Below are positions 22,394-39,281 of a stretch of DNA of 39,281 bases, piece after piece. How positions within the stretch are numbered: position 1 is the stretch's first letter; each line of letters begins with the position of its first letter. The DNA lies in NCBI GenBank assembly GCA_025362195.1, contig JANYHV010000423.1, positions 1-39,281 on the forward strand, read 5' to 3'. Source of the stretch: Fimbriiglobus sp. GTDB taxonomy: Bacteria > Planctomycetota > Planctomycetia > Gemmatales > Gemmataceae. Under the pieces are notes generated by a model, which ran no database searches, was not told the DNA's origin, and saw only the letters and a list, made by a program, of their open reading frames with translations. Both the position numbers and the translations under genes were made by a program.

Positions 22394-23497
<1,104 letters not shown>

Positions 23498-23619
23498 TGA
23501 ACCACTGGCCTGACGGGAGAGGATCGACAAGGCGTCGGCTACAATCGATATTTTAGAACGACGTGCCCGGATTTTCCACGAACATTGCGAGAAGATTGAG
23601 CGTGTCGGCCGCGTTCCGG

Positions 23620-24432
23620 TCAGGCGATGCCCAAAATCCGATTGAGTGCCGTCGTGCCCAACTCGACGACCTGGCTCGGCTTCATGTCCCAGAGCACGGG
23701 GTTGAGCAGTTCCAGCGAGACCGCCTTGGCGTAGCCGATCTCGCGCAAGCGCGCGACGATCGGGGCGAGGTCGAAGTCGCCTTCGCCGGGGAAGACGCGG
23801 TCGGCGTCGGTCATCAGTTCGCGCGGCACGCCGGGCACGTCGCAGAGTTGGACGTGGGCGAGGTTGCGGAGGGTCAGCCGCCGCAAGTCCTCGGGCTTGC
23901 TCGGCCCCTTGTAGTAGTGGAAGGCGTCGAGGCAGACGCCGACGTTCGGCTCGCCGCACTGCTCGACCAGCATCACGGCCGTGTCCAGGCAGGCGCAGAA
24001 GCTGTTGCCGCCCTGGAACTCCAACGCCAGCGTCACCCCGTACCCGGCGGCCCACTGTCCGGCCTGGGCCAACGAAACGAGGGACCGCTGGAGCGACGTT
24101 TCGTCGAGCCGCTGGTGAAAGTCGGCGACGACGACGAGGGTCGGGATGCCGAGGGCTTCGCACAGGGCGAGCCGCGCCTTGAAGTGGTCGAAGTGGGCCG
24201 CGCGGGCGTCGCCTTGGGAGAGCAGCAACCCGCCCTGGAAGGCCGCGGCCACGAGTGTCACGCTGCGGTTCTGGACGAGGCGGTTGGTCTCGTCGAGCGA
24301 GTGGGTTTCGAGGTGGGTTTCGAGCTTCGTCAGCCAGACTTCGACGGACGAACACCCGCCGTCGGCCGCGCCGACGATGTCGGCCTCGAACGGCGTGGTC
24401 AGGGTCACCGCCTGGCTGATGCACGGGGTCAT
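23620..24432 (-). CDS. Sugar phosphate isomerase/epimerase (xylose isomerase-like TIM barrel)
   Basis: LALEFQGGNSFCACLDTAVMLVEQCGEPNVGVCLDAFHYYKG and HVQLCDVPGVPRE...PGEGDFDLAPIVARLREIGYAKAVSLEL AP_endonuc_2 pattern. Confidence 0.8.
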   Translation of the reverse strand: MTPCISQAVTLTTPFEADIVGAADGGCSSVEVWLTKLETHLETHSLDETNRLVQNRSVTLVAAAFQGGLLLSQGDARAAHFDHFKARLALCEALGIPTLVVVADFHQRLDETSLQRSLVSLAQAGQWAAGYGVTLALEFQGGNSFCACLDTAVMLVEQCGEPNVGVCLDAFHYYKGPSKPEDLRRLTLRNLAHVQLCDVPGVPRELMTDADRVFPGEGDFDLAPIVARLREIGYAKAVSLELLNPVLWDMKPSQVVELGTTALNRILGIA

Positions 24433-24439
24433 GGGCGTC

Positions 24440-25954
24440 CTACTTGGCCGGCTTCTTGACCGGCGTCGGCGCGGGGGCCGGGGTTTTGGCGTCGGCGAAC
24501 GGGTTGAACAAGTAAAAGATCCAGAGGAGGACCGCGAGCACCTGCAAGCCCACCGCCACGCCGATCCAGAGCCAGACCTGACTCTTCGGCACGACGCCCT
24601 GCGACTTCAGCGGCGCGTCGGCGACCAGGGCTTCGGGGTGCTCTTCGGCCGGGGTGGCGACGACTCCCGCGAACGCCGCTTCGCCACTCTCGCCGGGCGT
24701 GTACTCGCGCGGCACGAAGCCCTCCTCGGGGGTCAGCGGCGGGTCGCCTTCGAGGACTTCGAGCGACTCGACCCGGCCCAGCGGGTGCTCGACGACTGGG
24801 ACGGACGCGAGCGCCGGGGCCGGTAGCGGTTCGGCCGGCGTCCACAGGCCGACGTTGCTGGCGAGAGCGTCGTCGATCAGGTCGGCGAGGGCGTTCGCGG
24901 CCGGCTTGTCGAGCGGGACCGGCACCGCGGCCGGTACCCCGCCGAGGCTCGCAATCGCGTCCGGGAGCGTCGGCCGGCGGGCGGGGTCGGCACTCAACAT
25001 CGCGTGAATCGCCCCGGCGAGCGGCGGCGGGACGTCCGCGCGCAGGGTGTCCAGAGGCGTGACGTGGCCGTGCCGCAGGGCGGCCACCAGCCCCGCGCGC
25101 GTCTCGCAGTGCCCGGCCGGCGTCCGACCGGTGAGCAGGTAGTACATCGTCGCGCCGAGGCCGTACACATCGGCGGAAGTCGTGAGCGGTTCGCCGGCCA
25201 GCCGTTCCGGGGCGGCGAACGCCAACTCCTGGACCGGCCGGTCTTCTGCGAGATCGAGCCGCAGGCCCAGGCCCGAGAGCTTGACGGTCGCGTCGGCGGT
25301 CGGCCGGAACCGCGGGGTGCCGTCGTCCCGCGGCTTCGCCATCGGCGTCAGCGGGCCGACGTGCAGGGTGTGCGGCTGCACGTCCCCGTGGACGATGCCG
25401 TGCTTGGCCGCGACTTCGAGCGCCGCCGCGACGCCCTTCAGGTAGTCGCAGGCCAGTCCGGCCGGCATCGGGCCGATGTCGCCGACGAGCGTGAGCAGGT
25501 CTTCGCCGTCGAACGGTTCGAGCGCGACGAAGACGCCGCCGTCCGGGGTAACTCCGGCGTCGAGGAGCGTCGTCAAGTGCGGGTGGCGGATGACGCTGGC
25601 GTCCTGGGCGCGGCGGACGTACTCGTTGCGGTCCGCGTCCGCGGGAAAGCGGCCGACGGGGAGGCGGCGGAGGACCACCGGGGACCCGAGGGACGGGTGC
25701 AGGGCGCGGAAGTCGCCGCCCAGTTCGCCGACGACCGGGAAGCCGGCGACGACCAGTTCGTCGCCGCGTCCGGCCCGCAACAGTTGCGCCTGGTACGGCG
25801 TCAGGTCGCCGGCAGCGAGCAATCGATCCGTGACTTCGTGGAGGCGGTCGGGCGTCAGTTCGCCGGGACGCGCCAGGCCGCTCACCTCGTCCGTCGGGAG
25901 TAGCCGCTGGGCGCGGGCCAGGGCGAGGAACGCCGTCGCGGGGTCGGCAGACAT
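24440..25954 (-). CDS. Protein kinase-like protein, predicted pseudokinase, with C-terminal TM helix
   Basis: Kinase lobes recognisable (LACDYLKGVAAALEVAAKHGIVHGDVQPHTLHV; FAAPERLAGEPLTTSADVYGLGATMYYLLTGRTP; PARRPTLPDAI), but DFG is SGL and HRDxxxxN is HGDVQPHT. TM VWLWIGVAVGLQVLAVLLWIFYLF. Confidence 0.85.
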   Translation of the reverse strand: MSADPATAFLALARAQRLLPTDEVSGLARPGELTPDRLHEVTDRLLAAGDLTPYQAQLLRAGRGDELVVAGFPVVGELGGDFRALHPSLGSPVVLRRLPVGRFPADADRNEYVRRAQDASVIRHPHLTTLLDAGVTPDGGVFVALEPFDGEDLLTLVGDIGPMPAGLACDYLKGVAAALEVAAKHGIVHGDVQPHTLHVGPLTPMAKPRDDGTPRFRPTADATVKLSGLGLRLDLAEDRPVQELAFAAPERLAGEPLTTSADVYGLGATMYYLLTGRTPAGHCETRAGLVAALRHGHVTPLDTLRADVPPPLAGAIHAMLSADPARRPTLPDAIASLGGVPAAVPVPLDKPAANALADLIDDALASNVGLWTPAEPLPAPALASVPVVEHPLGRVESLEVLEGDPPLTPEEGFVPREYTPGESGEAAFAGVVATPAEEHPEALVADAPLKSQGVVPKSQVWLWIGVAVGLQVLAVLLWIFYLFNPFADAKTPAPAPTPVKKPAK

Positions 25955-26052
25955 GGTGCGGCGTCTCGGGCCGGGAAGGTGAGTAACACAGCTACGAGAA
26001 TAGTAGCGACGGCCGCGCCGCCAGGCCAAGGCGAAGCCGGAATGCCCGCCGA

Positions 26053-26907
26053 TTACCAGTCGATGCCGACGGATTTGGCGATGGCGACGACCCGTTCGCG
26101 GGCCACCGTCGCGGCCCGGTCGGGGTTCTCGTGGCAGGTGTACAACTCGATCGTCACCCACCCGGCGTACCCAACTTCCTTGAGCGCCGCCAGCGTGCCG
26201 TGGAAGTCGATGACCCCGTCGCCGGGGATCAGGTGGTGGTGGACCCGGGTCGCGGCGATGTCTTCCAAATGCACGTGCCGGATCAGCGGGGCGAGCTTGC
26301 GGACGGTCGCCGCGGGGTCGTCCTTGACGCAGTAGAAGTGGCCGATGTCGAAGTTCAGGCCGAGGTACGGCGAGTCGAAGTGCCGGGCGAATTCGAGGTA
26401 CTGGTCGGCCGTTTCGATGAGCAGGTCCGGTTCCGGTTCGATTAAGAGCGGCACGCCGACTTTCTCGGCGTGGGCGACGACCGGCTTCAACATCTCGACG
26501 AAGAGTTTCAGGCACTCGCCCCACGGCCGGCCTTCGAGCGGGCCGCCCGGTTCGGTCGTGATGCACGGCGCGCCCAACTCGGCGGCGAGGCTCAACGCCC
26601 GCGTCGTGTGGTCGATGCGGACTTGCCGGTAGTTGGAGTCCGGCTCGATCCACGACGGGTGCCAGTACTTCTGCCGTCGGTCGTTGACCGCGTGCATCAT
26701 GAAGGCGTTGACGTTCGAGATGGCGAGCTTGTTCGCGGCCAATGCTTCGCGGATTGCCGCCTTGTGCGACGGCAGCAGGTAGGCCGGCCAGGCGTGCGGC
26801 ACGTCGGCCATGATCTCCACGCCGGCGTAGCCGATTCCGGCCAGCCGGTCGCACGTCTCGGCGAAGGAGTAGTTCAGGTAGGCGTTCGTCGAAAAGGCGA
26901 GTTTCAT
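26053..26907 (-). CDS. Sugar phosphate isomerase/epimerase (TIM barrel)
   Basis: MKLAFSTNAYLNYSFAETCDRLAGIGYAGVEIMAD; PLLIEPEPDLLIETADQYLEFARHF; LGLNFDIGHFYCV; HVHLEDI. Confidence 0.85.
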   Translation of the reverse strand: MKLAFSTNAYLNYSFAETCDRLAGIGYAGVEIMADVPHAWPAYLLPSHKAAIREALAANKLAISNVNAFMMHAVNDRRQKYWHPSWIEPDSNYRQVRIDHTTRALSLAAELGAPCITTEPGGPLEGRPWGECLKLFVEMLKPVVAHAEKVGVPLLIEPEPDLLIETADQYLEFARHFDSPYLGLNFDIGHFYCVKDDPAATVRKLAPLIRHVHLEDIAATRVHHHLIPGDGVIDFHGTLAALKEVGYAGWVTIELYTCHENPDRAATVARERVVAIAKSVGIDW

Positions 26908-33307: not shown

Positions 33308-33640
33308 ATGCCGGCCGACGTCCTCCCCCTCTCGATCAAGCGCGACGGCGACGCCTTTCGGATCGAATGGTCCGACGGCGTCGCCGCGTCCGTGCCCTTC
33401 CTCACGCTCCGCAACAACTGCCCGTGCGCGACGTGCAACGACGAGCGGACCAAGCCGGCCGACCCGTTCCGCGTGTTGAGCGCCCGCGAAGTCTCGGCCG
33501 GACTCCCGGTGCCGGTGGCGATGAAGGCCGTCGGCCACTACGCCTACCAGATCACCTGGAACGACGGCCACGACGCCGGCATTTTCACCCTCGACGCCCT
33601 CCGCCGACTCGGCCAGCCCGCGACCCCCCCAAGGACTTGA
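33308..33640 (+). CDS. DUF971 domain protein
   Basis: FRIEWSDGVAASVPFLTLRNNCPCATCNDERT...VGHYAYQITWNDGHDAGIFTLDALRRL. Confidence 0.9.
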   Translation: MPADVLPLSIKRDGDAFRIEWSDGVAASVPFLTLRNNCPCATCNDERTKPADPFRVLSAREVSAGLPVPVAMKAVGHYAYQITWNDGHDAGIFTLDALRRLGQPATPPRT

Positions 33641-33645
33641 CCACC

Positions 33646-34464
33646 ATGCCCCCGCCCAGTGGCCCCGGCCAAAAATTCTCCCTGCCCGGCGTCAAGCACC
33701 TGATCGCGGTCGCCAGCGGCAAGGGCGGCGTCGGCAAATCGACGGTCGCCGCCAACCTCGCCGTCGCCCTGCAAATGGCCGGCCAGCGCGTCGGCCTCAT
33801 GGACGCGGACATCTACGGCCCGTCGGTCCCGTTGATGTTCGGCCTCGGCCAGGTGGACCAGACCCGCACGCCGTTCCCGATCGAAAAGTTCGGCGTCAAA
33901 CTGATGTCGATGGGCTTTCTCGTCGATCCCCGTCAGGCGGTCATCTGGCGCGGCCCGAAGGTGGCCCAGGCCGTCGGCTCGTTCCTGGCGCAAATCCCGT
34001 GGGGCGACCTCGACTTCCTCATCATCGACCTGCCGCCCGGCACCGGCGACGCCCAATTGACGCTGTCGCAGCAGGCCCCGTTGACCGGCGCGATCATCGT
34101 GACGACGCCCGGGGAGGTGAGCCTGATCGACGCCCGCAAGGGGGTCAAGATGTTCGAGGAGGTCCGCGTCCCGGTCCTCGGCGTCATCGAGAACATGAGC
34201 CACTTCACGAGCGCCGACGGCCAGAAGCACGCGATCTTCGGCACCGGCGGCGGGGCCAAACTCGCCGCCGAAGCCGGGGTGCCGTTCCTCGGCGAACTGC
34301 CGATCGACCCGCGCGTCGCCACGGCCGGGGACGCCGGCGAACCGGTCGTCCGCAAGCACCCCGAGTCCCCGGTGTCGGCCGCCTACGTCGAGCTCGCCCG
34401 CACGGTCGTCGCCGAGATGACCACCCGGCCGCAGGCGAACGCGCTGCCGACGGTGGAGTTGTAA
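33646..34464 (+). CDS. Mrp/NBP35/ApbC-family P-loop ATPase (no DUF59, no cysteines)
   Basis: IAVASGKGGVGKSTVAANLAVALQMAGQRVGLMDADIYGPSVPLMFG; LDFLIIDLPPGTGDAQLTLSQ; VIENMSHFTSADGQKHAIFGTGGG. Confidence 0.93.
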   Translation: MPPPSGPGQKFSLPGVKHLIAVASGKGGVGKSTVAANLAVALQMAGQRVGLMDADIYGPSVPLMFGLGQVDQTRTPFPIEKFGVKLMSMGFLVDPRQAVIWRGPKVAQAVGSFLAQIPWGDLDFLIIDLPPGTGDAQLTLSQQAPLTGAIIVTTPGEVSLIDARKGVKMFEEVRVPVLGVIENMSHFTSADGQKHAIFGTGGGAKLAAEAGVPFLGELPIDPRVATAGDAGEPVVRKHPESPVSAAYVELARTVVAEMTTRPQANALPTVEL

Positions 34465-34469
34465 GCCGG

Positions 34470-35492
34470 TTACACGTCGCCGAGCAGGTTCGGCACCTTC
34501 TCGCGGAGGTGTTCGATCTCCTGGTGCGACTCGCCGAGGTACGCCAGCAACCTCAGGTCGTCCCGCGACACCGTGCCGCCGCTGAGCAGCCAGGCGCGGA
34601 CCCGGAACAGCTTGTAGAGCTTCACCAGCTTGCGGTCGCTGATGAAGATTTTGTCCTCGCGGACCAGCGTCTTGACGAGCCGCTGGAACTCGCGGAAGAC
34701 GTCGGCCGGAAAGAAGACCTCGCGGTCGTTGGCCTCCTCGCCGCGCGCGTCGGCCGTCCGCCGGCTGAACAGGTACGTGAGGTAGCGGTTGGCCTTCAAG
34801 AAGTCGTCCAGGCCGGCGTGGCCCTCGGCCCACGGCTTCTGGTTCAGCCCCTTGTACGACTCGTTTTGCAGGCCCACGTCGATCAATTCGGTGAAGTAGT
34901 CGTCCTGCACCGGGCGGCTCTGCACCTTGAGCACGAACCGGTCCTTGAGCGCGGCCAGTTCGCCCTGCTCGGGGATTTCGTTGGTCGCGGCGAACATGAC
35001 CCGCAGCGGCACCGGCTCGGGCACGCCGTCCTGGTAGAACTTGCGCTCGTTGATGATCGTCAGCAGGATGTTCAAGATCGCCGAGTTCGACTTGAAGATT
35101 TCGTCGAGGAAGACGAGCTTCGCGGTCGGCAGCTTGCCCTCCTTGCGGCGGATGTACTTGCCGTCGCGGAGTTCCTTGATGTCGATCGCGCCGATGATCT
35201 CGCTCGGCTCGGTGAACCGCGTCAGCATGTACTCGAAGTAGTCGCCCTCGCCCATGCCGAGCGCGTCCTTGAACTTCAGGACGAGGTCGGACTTGGCGGT
35301 GCCGGGCGGGCCGACGATCAGCAGCGGCTCCTGGGCGACGGCGGCGACGCACATCAGGTCGATGAGTTCTTGCTTGTGGACGAAGTACCGGCCGAGGGCC
35401 ACGCGGAACCGGTTGATGCGCTTGCGGAGGTCGTCCGCTTCGGCCTGCAAGTCGGCGAGCGTCGAGTCTTCGGCCGAGGGCTTTTTCGCCAT
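34470..35492 (-). CDS. MoxR-type AAA+ ATPase
   Basis: LLIVGPPGTAKSDLVLKF Walker A; RFTEPSEIIGAIDI; KLVFLDEIFKSNSAILNILLTIINERKFYQDG Walker B; MFAATNEIPEQGELAALKDRF. Confidence 0.93.
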   Translation of the reverse strand: MAKKPSAEDSTLADLQAEADDLRKRINRFRVALGRYFVHKQELIDLMCVAAVAQEPLLIVGPPGTAKSDLVLKFKDALGMGEGDYFEYMLTRFTEPSEIIGAIDIKELRDGKYIRRKEGKLPTAKLVFLDEIFKSNSAILNILLTIINERKFYQDGVPEPVPLRVMFAATNEIPEQGELAALKDRFVLKVQSRPVQDDYFTELIDVGLQNESYKGLNQKPWAEGHAGLDDFLKANRYLTYLFSRRTADARGEEANDREVFFPADVFREFQRLVKTLVREDKIFISDRKLVKLYKLFRVRAWLLSGGTVSRDDLRLLAYLGESHQEIEHLREKVPNLLGDV

Positions 35493-35577
35493 GTCGCGGT
35501 GCGTCCGTCACGGGGGCTGGGCGGGGTCGGGCAGGGGAATTGTAACGGCCCGGCGGCGGTTCGGGAATCCGCGCCGC

Positions 35578-38500
35578 TCAGAGCGACTTCAGCGCCTCGG
35601 TCAAGTCCCGGGAGACGCGGCGGCGGATCAGGTACTCGTCGTCGTCCAGCCAGGCCCGGACCTGCGGCCCGAGGGTGAACTCCTCGCTCACGACGGCGCG
35701 GATCGCAACGTCGATCAGCGCGAGCGGGGCGAGCGTGAAGTACCGGTTGGTCGCCCCGGTGGCGGTCACCATGTCGAGCCGCAAGAAGAGTTCTTCGAGC
35801 CGGCCCAACGCCGTCCGCGGCGGGGCGTGTTCGAGGGCCGCGGCGTAGGCCATCGCCGTCGCCGTGCGCTCGCGGTCGTCCCGGATGCCGCGGACGAACA
35901 GGCGGTCGCGGGCGGCGTCCAACACGGCGTTGCCCTCGTCCGACTGCCCGGCCGCGAAGTACCCGACGGCCAGCCCGAGGTCGCGCGGCCCGGCGTCGGT
36001 GCCCGGCCGCAACCGGGCGACGAGGAGTTCGGCGAGCGGCCGCAGGCCGAGCCGGGCGAGGGCGCGGAAGTACGGCCCGGCGACCGGCTCGAACAGCCGC
36101 GCCGTCGGCCCGTCCGGGGCGTCGCACCGGTCGATCAAGTGTTCCGTCGCGGCGCGGAACGACCCGGCGAGTTGGAACAGTGTCGCCGCGTGGCAGGCCG
36201 CCAGCAGCATCCGCCGGCCGTACCGGTGGGTGAGGGCCGTCGGGTCGCCGCTCAGGCCGCCGAGGCGGACCCACTCGGGGATCAACTCGACGGCCCGGAG
36301 GGTTTGCGGGATGACGGCCGACACGAGTTGCGGGTCGAGGTGCGGGGCCATTTCGAGCAGCGCGAACAGGACGCGGGGCATCGTCACCGCCGTCGGGTCG
36401 GCCTCGTCGATGGCGAGCAGACGGCGGGCGTCGTCCGGGTTGTGCAGGGCCCCCTTCGGCCGCAGGAATTCGACCAGCCGGTCCCCCAGCGCGTCCCGCC
36501 CGAGGAAGCCCAGCACGTCGCGGGTCTCGAACGGGTCGATGGCGGCGCGCGGCTCCAGGATGCGCGACTGCGCCCGCAGCGCGTCGATGGCGTACCGGCC
36601 CAAGGCGTCGAGGCCGGCCGGGGCCTCGTGGGCCGGGGCGTCGGCGTCGGGCCGGCCGTCCTGGGCGTCGCGGCCGCGGTCGAGGAAGCGCTGCAACAGG
36701 TGCGGGTGGACGCGCGGATCGACGCCCGGCCCGACGGGCTGGTGCAGCACCTTGGCCGCGGCCTGTTCGAGGTCCTTGGCGTGCGCCCGGTCGCCGAGTT
36801 TACCCAGGCCCCAGGCGACCATCAGGTCGGCGTAAGCGGCCGTCCGCGGGGCCTCGCCGTCCAGCCCGGCCCACTGCAACCGCCCGGGCGACGCGAGCTT
36901 GCCGACCCACCGCTGGACCGGCTCGCGGACGCGCAGCAGCCAGTCGCGGGCCAGGGTCAGCCGGTCGCCGGTGGCCACCCCGCGGAAGCGCAGGAAGGCG
37001 GGGGCGTCGAGGTCCAGCCCCGGCCCCTTGTCGCGGAGCCGGGCGAACAGGCGGTCGCGCGCCCCGGCCAGGCCGAGCGGGTCGCCGCCGGTCAGGCGGG
37101 CCGCCCCGAGCCGCGCGAGCCAGACGCCGCGCGCCGGCAGTTCGGCCTCGCGCTCCGTCACCCGGGCCAACAGCGCCGCCAGTTCAGTTTCCGGTCCCGC
37201 GGCCGAAGCCAGGTAGGCCGCGGTCACAGCGGCCATCGGCACCGAGTCCGGGGCGTCGAGCAAGTTCGCGGCGGTGACGTGCTGCGGGGCGACGCGGGCG
37301 GCGCGGCACTCGGCCTGGAACCAGGCGGTCGCGGCGCGGTCCGGTGGTTCGTCCCAGGCCGCGTTGAGCCGGCAGACGACCGCGTCCGGCGTGTCCCCGA
37401 AGGCGGTGTAGACCTCGGCCAGGTCGCCCCACAGTTCGACGCGCTCGGCCGGGGCCAGGCGGGGCAGGTCGGCGAGCACCCGGCGTTCGAGGTCGCGCCG
37501 CCGGGCCGTCCACTCGTTGCCCATGACGAGCGCGAGCGGCGACGCCAGCTTGCCCTGCAGGCGGTCGGGCGGGGCTTCGGCGGCCGGCTCTTCGGGGGGG
37601 GCTTCCGGCGGCGGGCCGAACCGCACCGGCCTGCCCGGCCGCAACCAGTCGGCGAGCCGCGGCAGCTTCCGCCACCAGTCCCGCAACCAGTCCGCCCCGG
37701 TCGTCTCACCCGACGGCGGTTCGCGGCCGGGCGCGAGCGCCTCGACGGCCGGGAGACTCTCGGCCTCGGCGACAAACCCCGGCAAGCTCGCCCACGCCGC
37801 GCCGACGGCCGGGCGGAACGCGGTGACGCGCGGCACCTCGTAGTCGATGGCGTCGCGGAGATTGCGGAAGGCCGTGCCCGGCACCCGGACCGGTCGCCAC
37901 GAGTCGCCGCGGCGGGCGAGGACGGTCAAGTGCCCCGGGCCGAGGTCGAATATCTCGGCCAGGGTCCGCGCCCGTAGCGGCGGCGTGAGGCGCGTGCCGA
38001 CCGGCAGGAACAGCGTCGGGCACTGCGGGTGCGGGGCGAACTCCGCCAGATTCGGAGCCACGGCCACCGGGGCCGCGCCGCCCGGCTCCGCGTGCAGCAC
38101 GGTCACGCCGGAGGCCGAGTCCGGAGCGGCGAGCGAGGCGACGCGGCACTTGCGCAACAGGGCTTCCGGCGTGTCGCACAACAATGCGGCGAGGCCGGTG
38201 CGGCCGCCCGTCCAGACCCACAGGGCTGCGGCGGTGACCGGACCGGATTGGGGAACGAGTCGCAAATCGACCGCGTGAGCCGGCAACGGGGGAAGCGTCG
38301 TCGGCCGATCGTGCGTGCCCAACGCGGGCGATTCGACGGGCAGCGGCGGCACTGCCGATCCCGACCGCCACGGCCGCTCCCGCGCGAGCAGAAGTTCGTG
38401 CCCCGAAGTCGGCGCGAAACTTTCGACCAGGGCGTGCGTGAACCCCGCTTCGATCCAAACGCCCGCGCGGACTTCCCGAAAGACTTCCCACGGTCCGTCG

Positions 38501-38934
38501 GCCAGGGTCGCGGCCAGGTGGGCCGGCAGGCGGTCCAGCACGACCGTCGCCGTCGGCGTGTCGGGGTTCAATTGCAGGCCGAGCAAGCGGACGTTTTGCC
38601 GCGAGAGTTGCGCGACGAACGCGGCGAGATCGGCGTCGGGGAGAAGCACCAGCCACCGGCCGGCGGAGGCATCGGCCGTGGGCTTGAGGGGGACGAGTTC
38701 GGCCCAGGCGAGCAGCGGGCGGGGCGGTGGACCGGACCCGGGCGGGTGGACCGTGACCCCGAGGCGGGCGAGGGCGACGGCCGAATCGCGCGGCACCCCT
38801 GCCGTCGAAATCCACCGGCCGCCGGCGTCGTCGGCCCCCCCGTCCGTGGGGCGGGCCGCAATCCCTGCCGGCACGATGCCGCTGACGAGGGCGAGCCGCA
38901 ACGACTCGGCGTGGGGGAAGCGGAACGTCGGCAT
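35578..38934 (-). CDS. Large (1118 aa) MoxR-linked protein of unknown function
   Basis: Single ORF 5' of and co-oriented with the MoxR gene. C-terminal module ALGRLEELFLRLD...AIRAVVSEEFTLGPQVRAWLDDDEYLIRRRVSRDLTEAL is shared with the next upstream gene. Confidence 0.8.
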   Translation of the reverse strand: MPTFRFPHAESLRLALVSGIVPAGIAARPTDGGADDAGGRWISTAGVPRDSAVALARLGVTVHPPGSGPPPRPLLAWAELVPLKPTADASAGRWLVLLPDADLAAFVAQLSRQNVRLLGLQLNPDTPTATVVLDRLPAHLAATLADGPWEVFREVRAGVWIEAGFTHALVESFAPTSGHELLLARERPWRSGSAVPPLPVESPALGTHDRPTTLPPLPAHAVDLRLVPQSGPVTAAALWVWTGGRTGLAALLCDTPEALLRKCRVASLAAPDSASGVTVLHAEPGGAAPVAVAPNLAEFAPHPQCPTLFLPVGTRLTPPLRARTLAEIFDLGPGHLTVLARRGDSWRPVRVPGTAFRNLRDAIDYEVPRVTAFRPAVGAAWASLPGFVAEAESLPAVEALAPGREPPSGETTGADWLRDWWRKLPRLADWLRPGRPVRFGPPPEAPPEEPAAEAPPDRLQGKLASPLALVMGNEWTARRRDLERRVLADLPRLAPAERVELWGDLAEVYTAFGDTPDAVVCRLNAAWDEPPDRAATAWFQAECRAARVAPQHVTAANLLDAPDSVPMAAVTAAYLASAAGPETELAALLARVTEREAELPARGVWLARLGAARLTGGDPLGLAGARDRLFARLRDKGPGLDLDAPAFLRFRGVATGDRLTLARDWLLRVREPVQRWVGKLASPGRLQWAGLDGEAPRTAAYADLMVAWGLGKLGDRAHAKDLEQAAAKVLHQPVGPGVDPRVHPHLLQRFLDRGRDAQDGRPDADAPAHEAPAGLDALGRYAIDALRAQSRILEPRAAIDPFETRDVLGFLGRDALGDRLVEFLRPKGALHNPDDARRLLAIDEADPTAVTMPRVLFALLEMAPHLDPQLVSAVIPQTLRAVELIPEWVRLGGLSGDPTALTHRYGRRMLLAACHAATLFQLAGSFRAATEHLIDRCDAPDGPTARLFEPVAGPYFRALARLGLRPLAELLVARLRPGTDAGPRDLGLAVGYFAAGQSDEGNAVLDAARDRLFVRGIRDDRERTATAMAYAAALEHAPPRTALGRLEELFLRLDMVTATGATNRYFTLAPLALIDVAIRAVVSEEFTLGPQVRAWLDDDEYLIRRRVSRDLTEALKSL

Positions 38935-38968
38935 ACCGTGACGATAGCACGCGACCGCCCGCCCGGCG

Positions 38969-39281
38969 TTACAGTCCGCTCGCGCTGAGTTGGCGACGCA
39001 GGTCGGCGTGGATGCGGCGGCGAACCAGGTACTCGTCCTCGTCTAGCCAGCGTCGCCCGGCCGGGCCGAGGGCGAAGTCGTCGTTGACGACGGCCAGCAC
39101 GACTTCTTCGACGAGGTTCAGGTGGAAGCGCGAGTAGAACCGGCTCGTCGTGAACGAGTTGGCGACGCGGGCCGGGTCCATCTTGTGGAACAGCTCGACG
39201 ATGCGCGCCAGCCCCGCCTCGGCCGGCCCCTGCCCGAGTGCCGAAACGTAGGCTTGCGCGAGCGGCGTGAAGTCCTTGGGC
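38969..39281 (-). CDS. C-terminus of a second MoxR-linked protein, paralogous tail (truncated by window edge)
   Basis: Open reading from the right edge: KDFTPLAQAYVSALGQGPAEAGLARIVELFHKMDPARVANSFTTSRFYSRFHLNLVEEVVLAVVNDDFALGPAGRRWLDEDEYLVRRRIHADLRRQLSASGL*. Confidence 0.8.
   Translation of the reverse strand, partial: PKDFTPLAQAYVSALGQGPAEAGLARIVELFHKMDPARVANSFTTSRFYSRFHLNLVEEVVLAVVNDDFALGPAGRRWLDEDEYLVRRRIHADLRRQLSASGL

Follow-up and report, generated by a model that had tools for sequence, protein, structure and literature searches.

Three genes at a contig edge of Fimbriiglobus sp. as the probable 3' end of an FtsH-type MoxR-vWA ternary system

The window, i.e. the whole stretch of 39,281 nt that was analysed, is an entire contig (C407, G000:C407:1-39281) of a Fimbriiglobus sp. 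MAG that is 87% complete. At its right edge, three co-oriented genes are transcribed from the minus strand in the order truncated gene, 1118-aa giant, MoxR. These open reading frames had been noticed in a preliminary description and are confirmed by homology. The tail of the truncated gene and the giant are separated by 34 nt, the giant and MoxR by 85 nt. The following features are relevant:

33367-34464, convergent with MoxR: NUBPL/Mrp-type ATPase, the next gene past MoxR
34470-35492, minus strand: MoxR AAA+ ATPase of 340 aa, FtsH-ternary type according to Pfam and tree
35100-35117, minus strand: MoxR Walker B motif LVFLDE (motif scan)
35289-35312, minus strand: MoxR Walker A motif GPPGTAKS, a GXXXTAKS variant (motif scan)
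35578-38934, minus strand: fvmX7b, the 1118-aa giant and large partner of the FtsH ternary system (PF20005; MoxR-adjoining homologues in relatives)
35581-37539, minus strand: predicted all-alpha solenoid of fvmX7b, residues 466-1118 (AlphaFold2 secondary structure)
37540-37839, minus strand: low-confidence linker of fvmX7b, about residues 366-465 (pLDDT below 50 over most of 367-465)
37840-38934, minus strand: predicted N-terminal alpha/beta head of fvmX7b, residues 1-365 (AlphaFold2; pLDDT of the head alone 86.8)
38969-39280, minus strand: fvmX7a, C-terminal 103 aa only, an open-ended reading frame cut by the contig end (assigned by identity to congeners)

In this GC-rich window, ORF length alone is weak evidence, as the strand opposite the giant also contains an ORF of 907 aa. 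Giant and tail are regarded as real genes because of their homology: The protein sequence of the giant is conserved in 20 of the 41 genomes that were searched, the own one included, and the fvmX7a tail has 96% identity (over 103 aa) to fvmX7a of the congener G001 and 70% identity to that of the congener G002. Tail and neighbouring fvmX7b share 39-40% identical residues and are, as supposed before, paralogues. The tail motif WLD(E/D)DE(Y/F)L..RR is conserved in the fvmX7b C-terminus (alignments A1 and A2). G001 has the same arrangement distributed across two contigs, one with paralogue and giant, the other with giant and MoxR. Promoter and terminator scans of the locus were uninformative. Two further genes of the window form a tandem pair that shows no apparent connection to the system: one for a sigma-54 activator (22394-24424), the other for an 804-aa protein resembling protein kinases (24440-26854).

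Pfam assigns residues 1-344 of the giant to PF20005 fvmX7 ('FtsH ternary system domain X7'; E-value 3.4e-29, 102.6 bits at a cut-off of 24). No bpX2 match was found in it by Pfam, and neither NCBIfam nor PADLOC named a family for giant or tail. Weak CRM1_C and YukD Pfam matches below cut-off were disregarded. In an AlphaFold2 model of the full giant (38 sequences, mean pLDDT 82), an alpha/beta head is joined by a probably disordered linker to a long alpha-solenoid; the head modelled alone has the same secondary structure. Based on this predicted architecture, the giant is probably a scaffold. Fold searches with the full giant and with the head yielded no structural match at E 0.001 or better. 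The matches of the solenoid are generic (TPR/PPR-like repeats). The best head matches are ferredoxin-like folds (LepA, ACT, BMC, RRM); since they are weak and have low TM-scores, the head fold was left unnamed. Between genomes, fvmX7 belongs to the least conserved components: Best-pair identities are 42-55% for fvmX7 and a comparable 37-58% for fvmX6, but 63-78% for FtsH and 74-84% for MoxR.

With its counterparts in two congeneric genomes, the window MoxR shares 97% and 86% identity, and it matches PF20030 bpMoxR (2.6e-61, 207 bits), AAA_5 (4.8e-23) and AAA_lid_8 (7.2e-7). The GXXXTAKS-type P-loop and the intact Walker B motif expected for the MoxR of an FtsH ternary system are present. This P-loop variant is common to the MoxRs of FtsH and beta-propeller ternary systems (Kaur et al., 2020; PMC7159879). 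The PF20030 profile, whose name derives from the beta-propeller systems, matches many MoxRs (in 12 of 14 control genomes). Therefore, the class of the MoxR was assigned by a tree. Here, the window MoxR falls within a clade of fvmX7-linked MoxRs (support 100/99), whereas the beta-propeller-type MoxRs form a separate clade that includes a second MoxR of the same genome. The latter, encoded on contig C129 (L149:8425-13249, G000:C129), scores 301 bits against PF20030 and adjoins the gene for a protein of 903 aa, the ends of which match bpX0 and bpX1 weakly. This means, the genome carries both kinds of MoxR system, and that of the window is the FtsH kind. The only solved relative of the window MoxR found by sequence is RavA (2.6e-35, residues 22-198). 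As in RavA-ViaA, the ATPase is a MoxR-family AAA+ protein, but the match covers only the AAA+ core, and an adjoining ViaA-like vWA gene is absent.

Operons were scanned at 59 loci in the contig collection and in fetched relatives. The recurrent order is (RtcA) - radical SAM - fvmX6 - fvmX5 - FtsH/M41 - fvmX3-analog - fvmX7 (one or two copies) - MoxR, followed by vWA in a few lineages. Directly upstream of fvmX7, relatives thus encode a radical SAM protein, PF20004 fvmX6, PF20003 fvmX5, an AAA + Peptidase_M41 protein and PF20002 fvmX3-analog. The whole series down to MoxR, with two tandem fvmX7 genes as in the window, was found at L142 and L067, which lie on the same contig. The suspected conserved linkage between giant and MoxR recurs: MoxR is the next gene past the last fvmX7 at 18 of the 46 loci that offer at least 1.5 kb of room, several of which share a genome and are not independent; at the other 28, MoxR and fvmX7 are unlinked. 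In three distant lineages, the next gene past MoxR encodes PF19997 ivWA with PF19996 ivWA-helical_N (Mariniblastus, L122; Kofleriaceae, L133; L129, labelled Comamonas), and MoxR and ivWA are also adjacent in L136, L171 and L172. These two families are the vWA that Pfam attributes to FtsH ternary systems and the helical domain at its N-terminus. A propeller gene was not seen in the fvmX7 operons of relatives. At L091:2367-7187 in G001, a 1606-aa VWA_3 + TPR protein, which is not ivWA, is encoded convergently with MoxR; it is absent from this position in the window.

The FtsH proteins of relatives carry GPPGTGKT in all cases and HEXXH in nearly all full-length copies (motif scan). They comprise one clear AAA domain and an M41 peptidase. 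In FtsH ternary systems, two AAA+ copies are expected in FtsH, the first of them inactive; a profile comparison of their N-terminal ~290 aa with the AAA domain yielded no match. A few Gemmataceae genomes (L060, L062, L070, L071) have a very divergent fvmX7 and MoxR, and the FtsH proteins of L060, L070 and L071 do not match the HEXXH pattern searched. In many Gemmataceae, and only there, the gene for RtcA (RNA 3'-terminal phosphate cyclase, PF01137) adjoins or overlaps the radical SAM gene at the operon head (L026, L028, L039, L063, L066, L067, L097, L099, L100, L105, L109, L110, L112, L118, L124, L134 and L142, some of them on the same contig). The text of Kaur et al. (PMC7159879) does not mention RtcA.

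The system can also be split. In G002, radical SAM, fvmX6, fvmX5, FtsH and fvmX3-analog genes lie together on contig C14, and fvmX7a (alone at L030) and ivWA are located ~100 kb apart on C5. The fvmX7b gene remains beside MoxR on C19 (L024), which suggests a direct partnership between fvmX7b and MoxR. The parts of the Fimbriiglobus genome are dispersed, too: Its ivWA (91 bits at a cut-off of 35) is truncated by the end of contig C464 and in the assembly unlinked to the window genes. The FtsH, fvmX5, fvmX6 and radical SAM genes of the system were not found in this MAG or in that of G001 (86% complete), and this counts against the interpretation given below. A system-type FtsH is present in G002 and in most operons of relatives. 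As the N-terminal part of fvmX7a is missing from the assembly, and also from that of G001, a real assembly gap follows position 39281. The rest of fvmX7a should lie beyond this position, and the missing FtsH-block genes may lie in the gap or may be absent from the genome. However, fvmX7a need not adjoin FtsH, because both are found at separate loci in G002. A vWA gene just past 39281, as had been predicted, is unlikely, since vWA genes of relatives are located downstream of MoxR, i.e. on its other side, or are unlinked, and the own ivWA is on C464.

Among 61 Gemmataceae genomes, fvmX7 was found in 46, fvmX5 in 41, ivWA in 40 and a MoxR of the 180-220-bit class in 44. Fourteen of the 15 genomes devoid of fvmX7 also lack fvmX5, ivWA and the class MoxR; the exception, G044, has all three. 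Co-occurrence with fvmX7 in these 61 genomes yielded p-values of 2.3e-8 for fvmX5, 6.7e-8 for ivWA and 4.3e-10 for MoxR of the window's bit-score class (one-sided Fisher tests, 6e-6 to 4e-10 overall), which are optimistic because relatedness was ignored. The parts are co-retained even where their genes are scattered, as in G002. With one to a few copies, fvmX7 is present in 34 of 43 high-quality Gemmataceae genomes, compared to 4 of the 147 genomes sampled from the rest of the phylum. Outside Gemmataceae, the system occurs sporadically (L129, L133, L122, L136), which suggests transfer.

Taken together, the three edge genes are best explained as the 3' end of an FtsH-type MoxR-vWA ternary system that works in the way outlined below, and we consider this reading as a whole probable. 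Their identity as parts of an FtsH-type system, which rests on the family assignments, the conserved gene order and the cognate ivWA elsewhere in the genome, is almost certain as far as sequence can tell. FtsH ternary systems are known from a computational prediction (Kaur et al., 2020; PMC7159879); a full-text search of a paper library yielded no second publication with these family names. In the simpler type described there (vWA-MoxR subsystem 3), a radical SAM gene is present and the vWA protein has a helical N-terminus. With this type, the window and its genome share the GXXXTAKS P-loop of MoxR, the fvmX7 partner and the gene for vWA with helical N-terminus; the FtsH and radical SAM genes are shared by the operons of relatives. 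Differences are the location of the own parts on separate contigs with the FtsH block not in the assembly, the two tandem fvmX7 paralogues and, in many Gemmataceae, RtcA at the operon head. The system is hence of a described kind, and the duplicated fvmX7 and the dispersed parts are features of the lineage.

The following mechanism can be envisaged. Like other MoxR-vWA pairs, ivWA and MoxR would form a chaperone couple, in which ivWA, by analogy to known couples, would bind the target or complex. The fvmX7 proteins would present the target by means of their putative recognition head, flexible linker and solenoid; their role as scaffold or adaptor of the couple is somewhat favoured over other roles. 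MoxR would hydrolyse ATP and remodel the large fvmX7-scaffolded complex. As the proteolytic partner, the FtsH-M41 metalloprotease would then unfold and cleave the remodelled or released protein. Such degradation by FtsH is conceivable because its ATPase motif is intact and HEXXH is found in nearly all full-length relatives; whether FtsH acts on the same substrate as the couple is, in our estimation, evenly balanced. The radical SAM enzyme might modify a peptide or protein partner. For Gemmataceae, the census yields a testable parts list, with MoxR and FtsH as AAA+ machines, the vWA protein, and the giant as a putative scaffold of two parts. It also points to cultured species with most parts linked, for instance Limnoglobus roseus PX52 (L127), in which the genes from radical SAM to MoxR form a single run.

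The preliminary description had correctly placed the genes in a MoxR-vWA ternary system, with giant and truncated protein as large partner components, but had proposed the beta-propeller type with vWA or propeller genes past the contig end. In favour of this type, the MoxRs are related (PF20030) and share the P-loop variant with beta-propeller systems (subsystem 4; PMC7159879), and weak bpX2 matches (best 8.5e-6) occur in some of the fvmX7 relatives. However, the tree separates both types with strong support, the window MoxR scores far fewer bits against bpMoxR than its counterpart on C129, the genes upstream of fvmX7 in relatives belong to FtsH-system families, and neither a bpX domain or propeller protein beside the window MoxR nor, in window or operons of relatives, a vWA protein with C-terminal beta-propeller next to MoxR was found. 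The comparison of the giant with the Pfam ternary families yielded fvmX7 instead of bpX2, and an hhalign comparison of the fvmX7 profile with the bpX0/bpX1 protein of the same genome yielded nothing. The beta-propeller system in mind does exist in this genome, on C129, but for the window genes this assignment was rejected on the basis of Pfam scores and MoxR tree and must be considered very improbable. Even less credible is a generic MoxR that neighbours an unrelated giant gene by chance. The loci with unlinked MoxR and fvmX7 would fit such a coincidence, but the recurrent adjacency, the phyletic co-occurrence, the ivWA adjacency in other lineages and the dedicated MoxR clade argue against it. 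Equally remote is the idea that the giant itself is a divergent vWA component, although, according to Kaur et al. (2020; PMC7159879), FtsH systems include vWA domains that are highly divergent and joined to large alpha-helical regions: The same operons and genomes have a gene of its own for ivWA, and the model, an alpha/beta head with an all-alpha C-terminus, had no vWA chain among its listed structural matches. Hence, a hidden vWA was rejected.

The purpose of the FtsH-type system is difficult to judge. Kaur et al. (2020; PMC7159879) make the case for a role in conflict with invaders. For the system described here, an anti-invader role has slightly less than even prospects in our view; a conventional effector gene adjoining the window genes was not seen, which counts against the overall reading. 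The same machine could instead serve housekeeping proteostasis or complex assembly in Gemmataceae, a serious possibility, although not the expected outcome. It would agree with the presence of fvmX7 in most high-quality Gemmataceae genomes but very few others of the phylum, with the co-retention of dispersed components and with the lack of a recognised toxic effector gene beside the operon. On the other hand, fvmX7 is poorly conserved between genomes compared to MoxR, as components of conflict systems often are, and the scattered occurrence outside Gemmataceae points to transfer. Furthermore, an association with a multicellular habit was reported (Kaur et al., 2020; PMC7159879). A more specific and rather unlikely proposal is that the Gemmataceae system has become a dispersed AAA+/protease machine retained by the lineage, in which the fvmX7 scaffolds were duplicated and an RNA 3'-phosphate cyclase was added, and that this machine acts in proteostasis or RNA-end repair and not in defence only.

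Some records deserve a comment with regard to their taxonomic labels. L129:5126-15790 and L133:5347-15719, labelled Comamonas sp. KCTC 72670 and Kofleriaceae, contain compact operons from radical SAM to ivWA with short gene overlaps, which reflect either transfer between phyla or mislabelled records. L105, titled 'Bacteroidales bacterium', carries the complete operon of Gemmataceae and matches G022, a genome of this family; this record is probably mislabelled.
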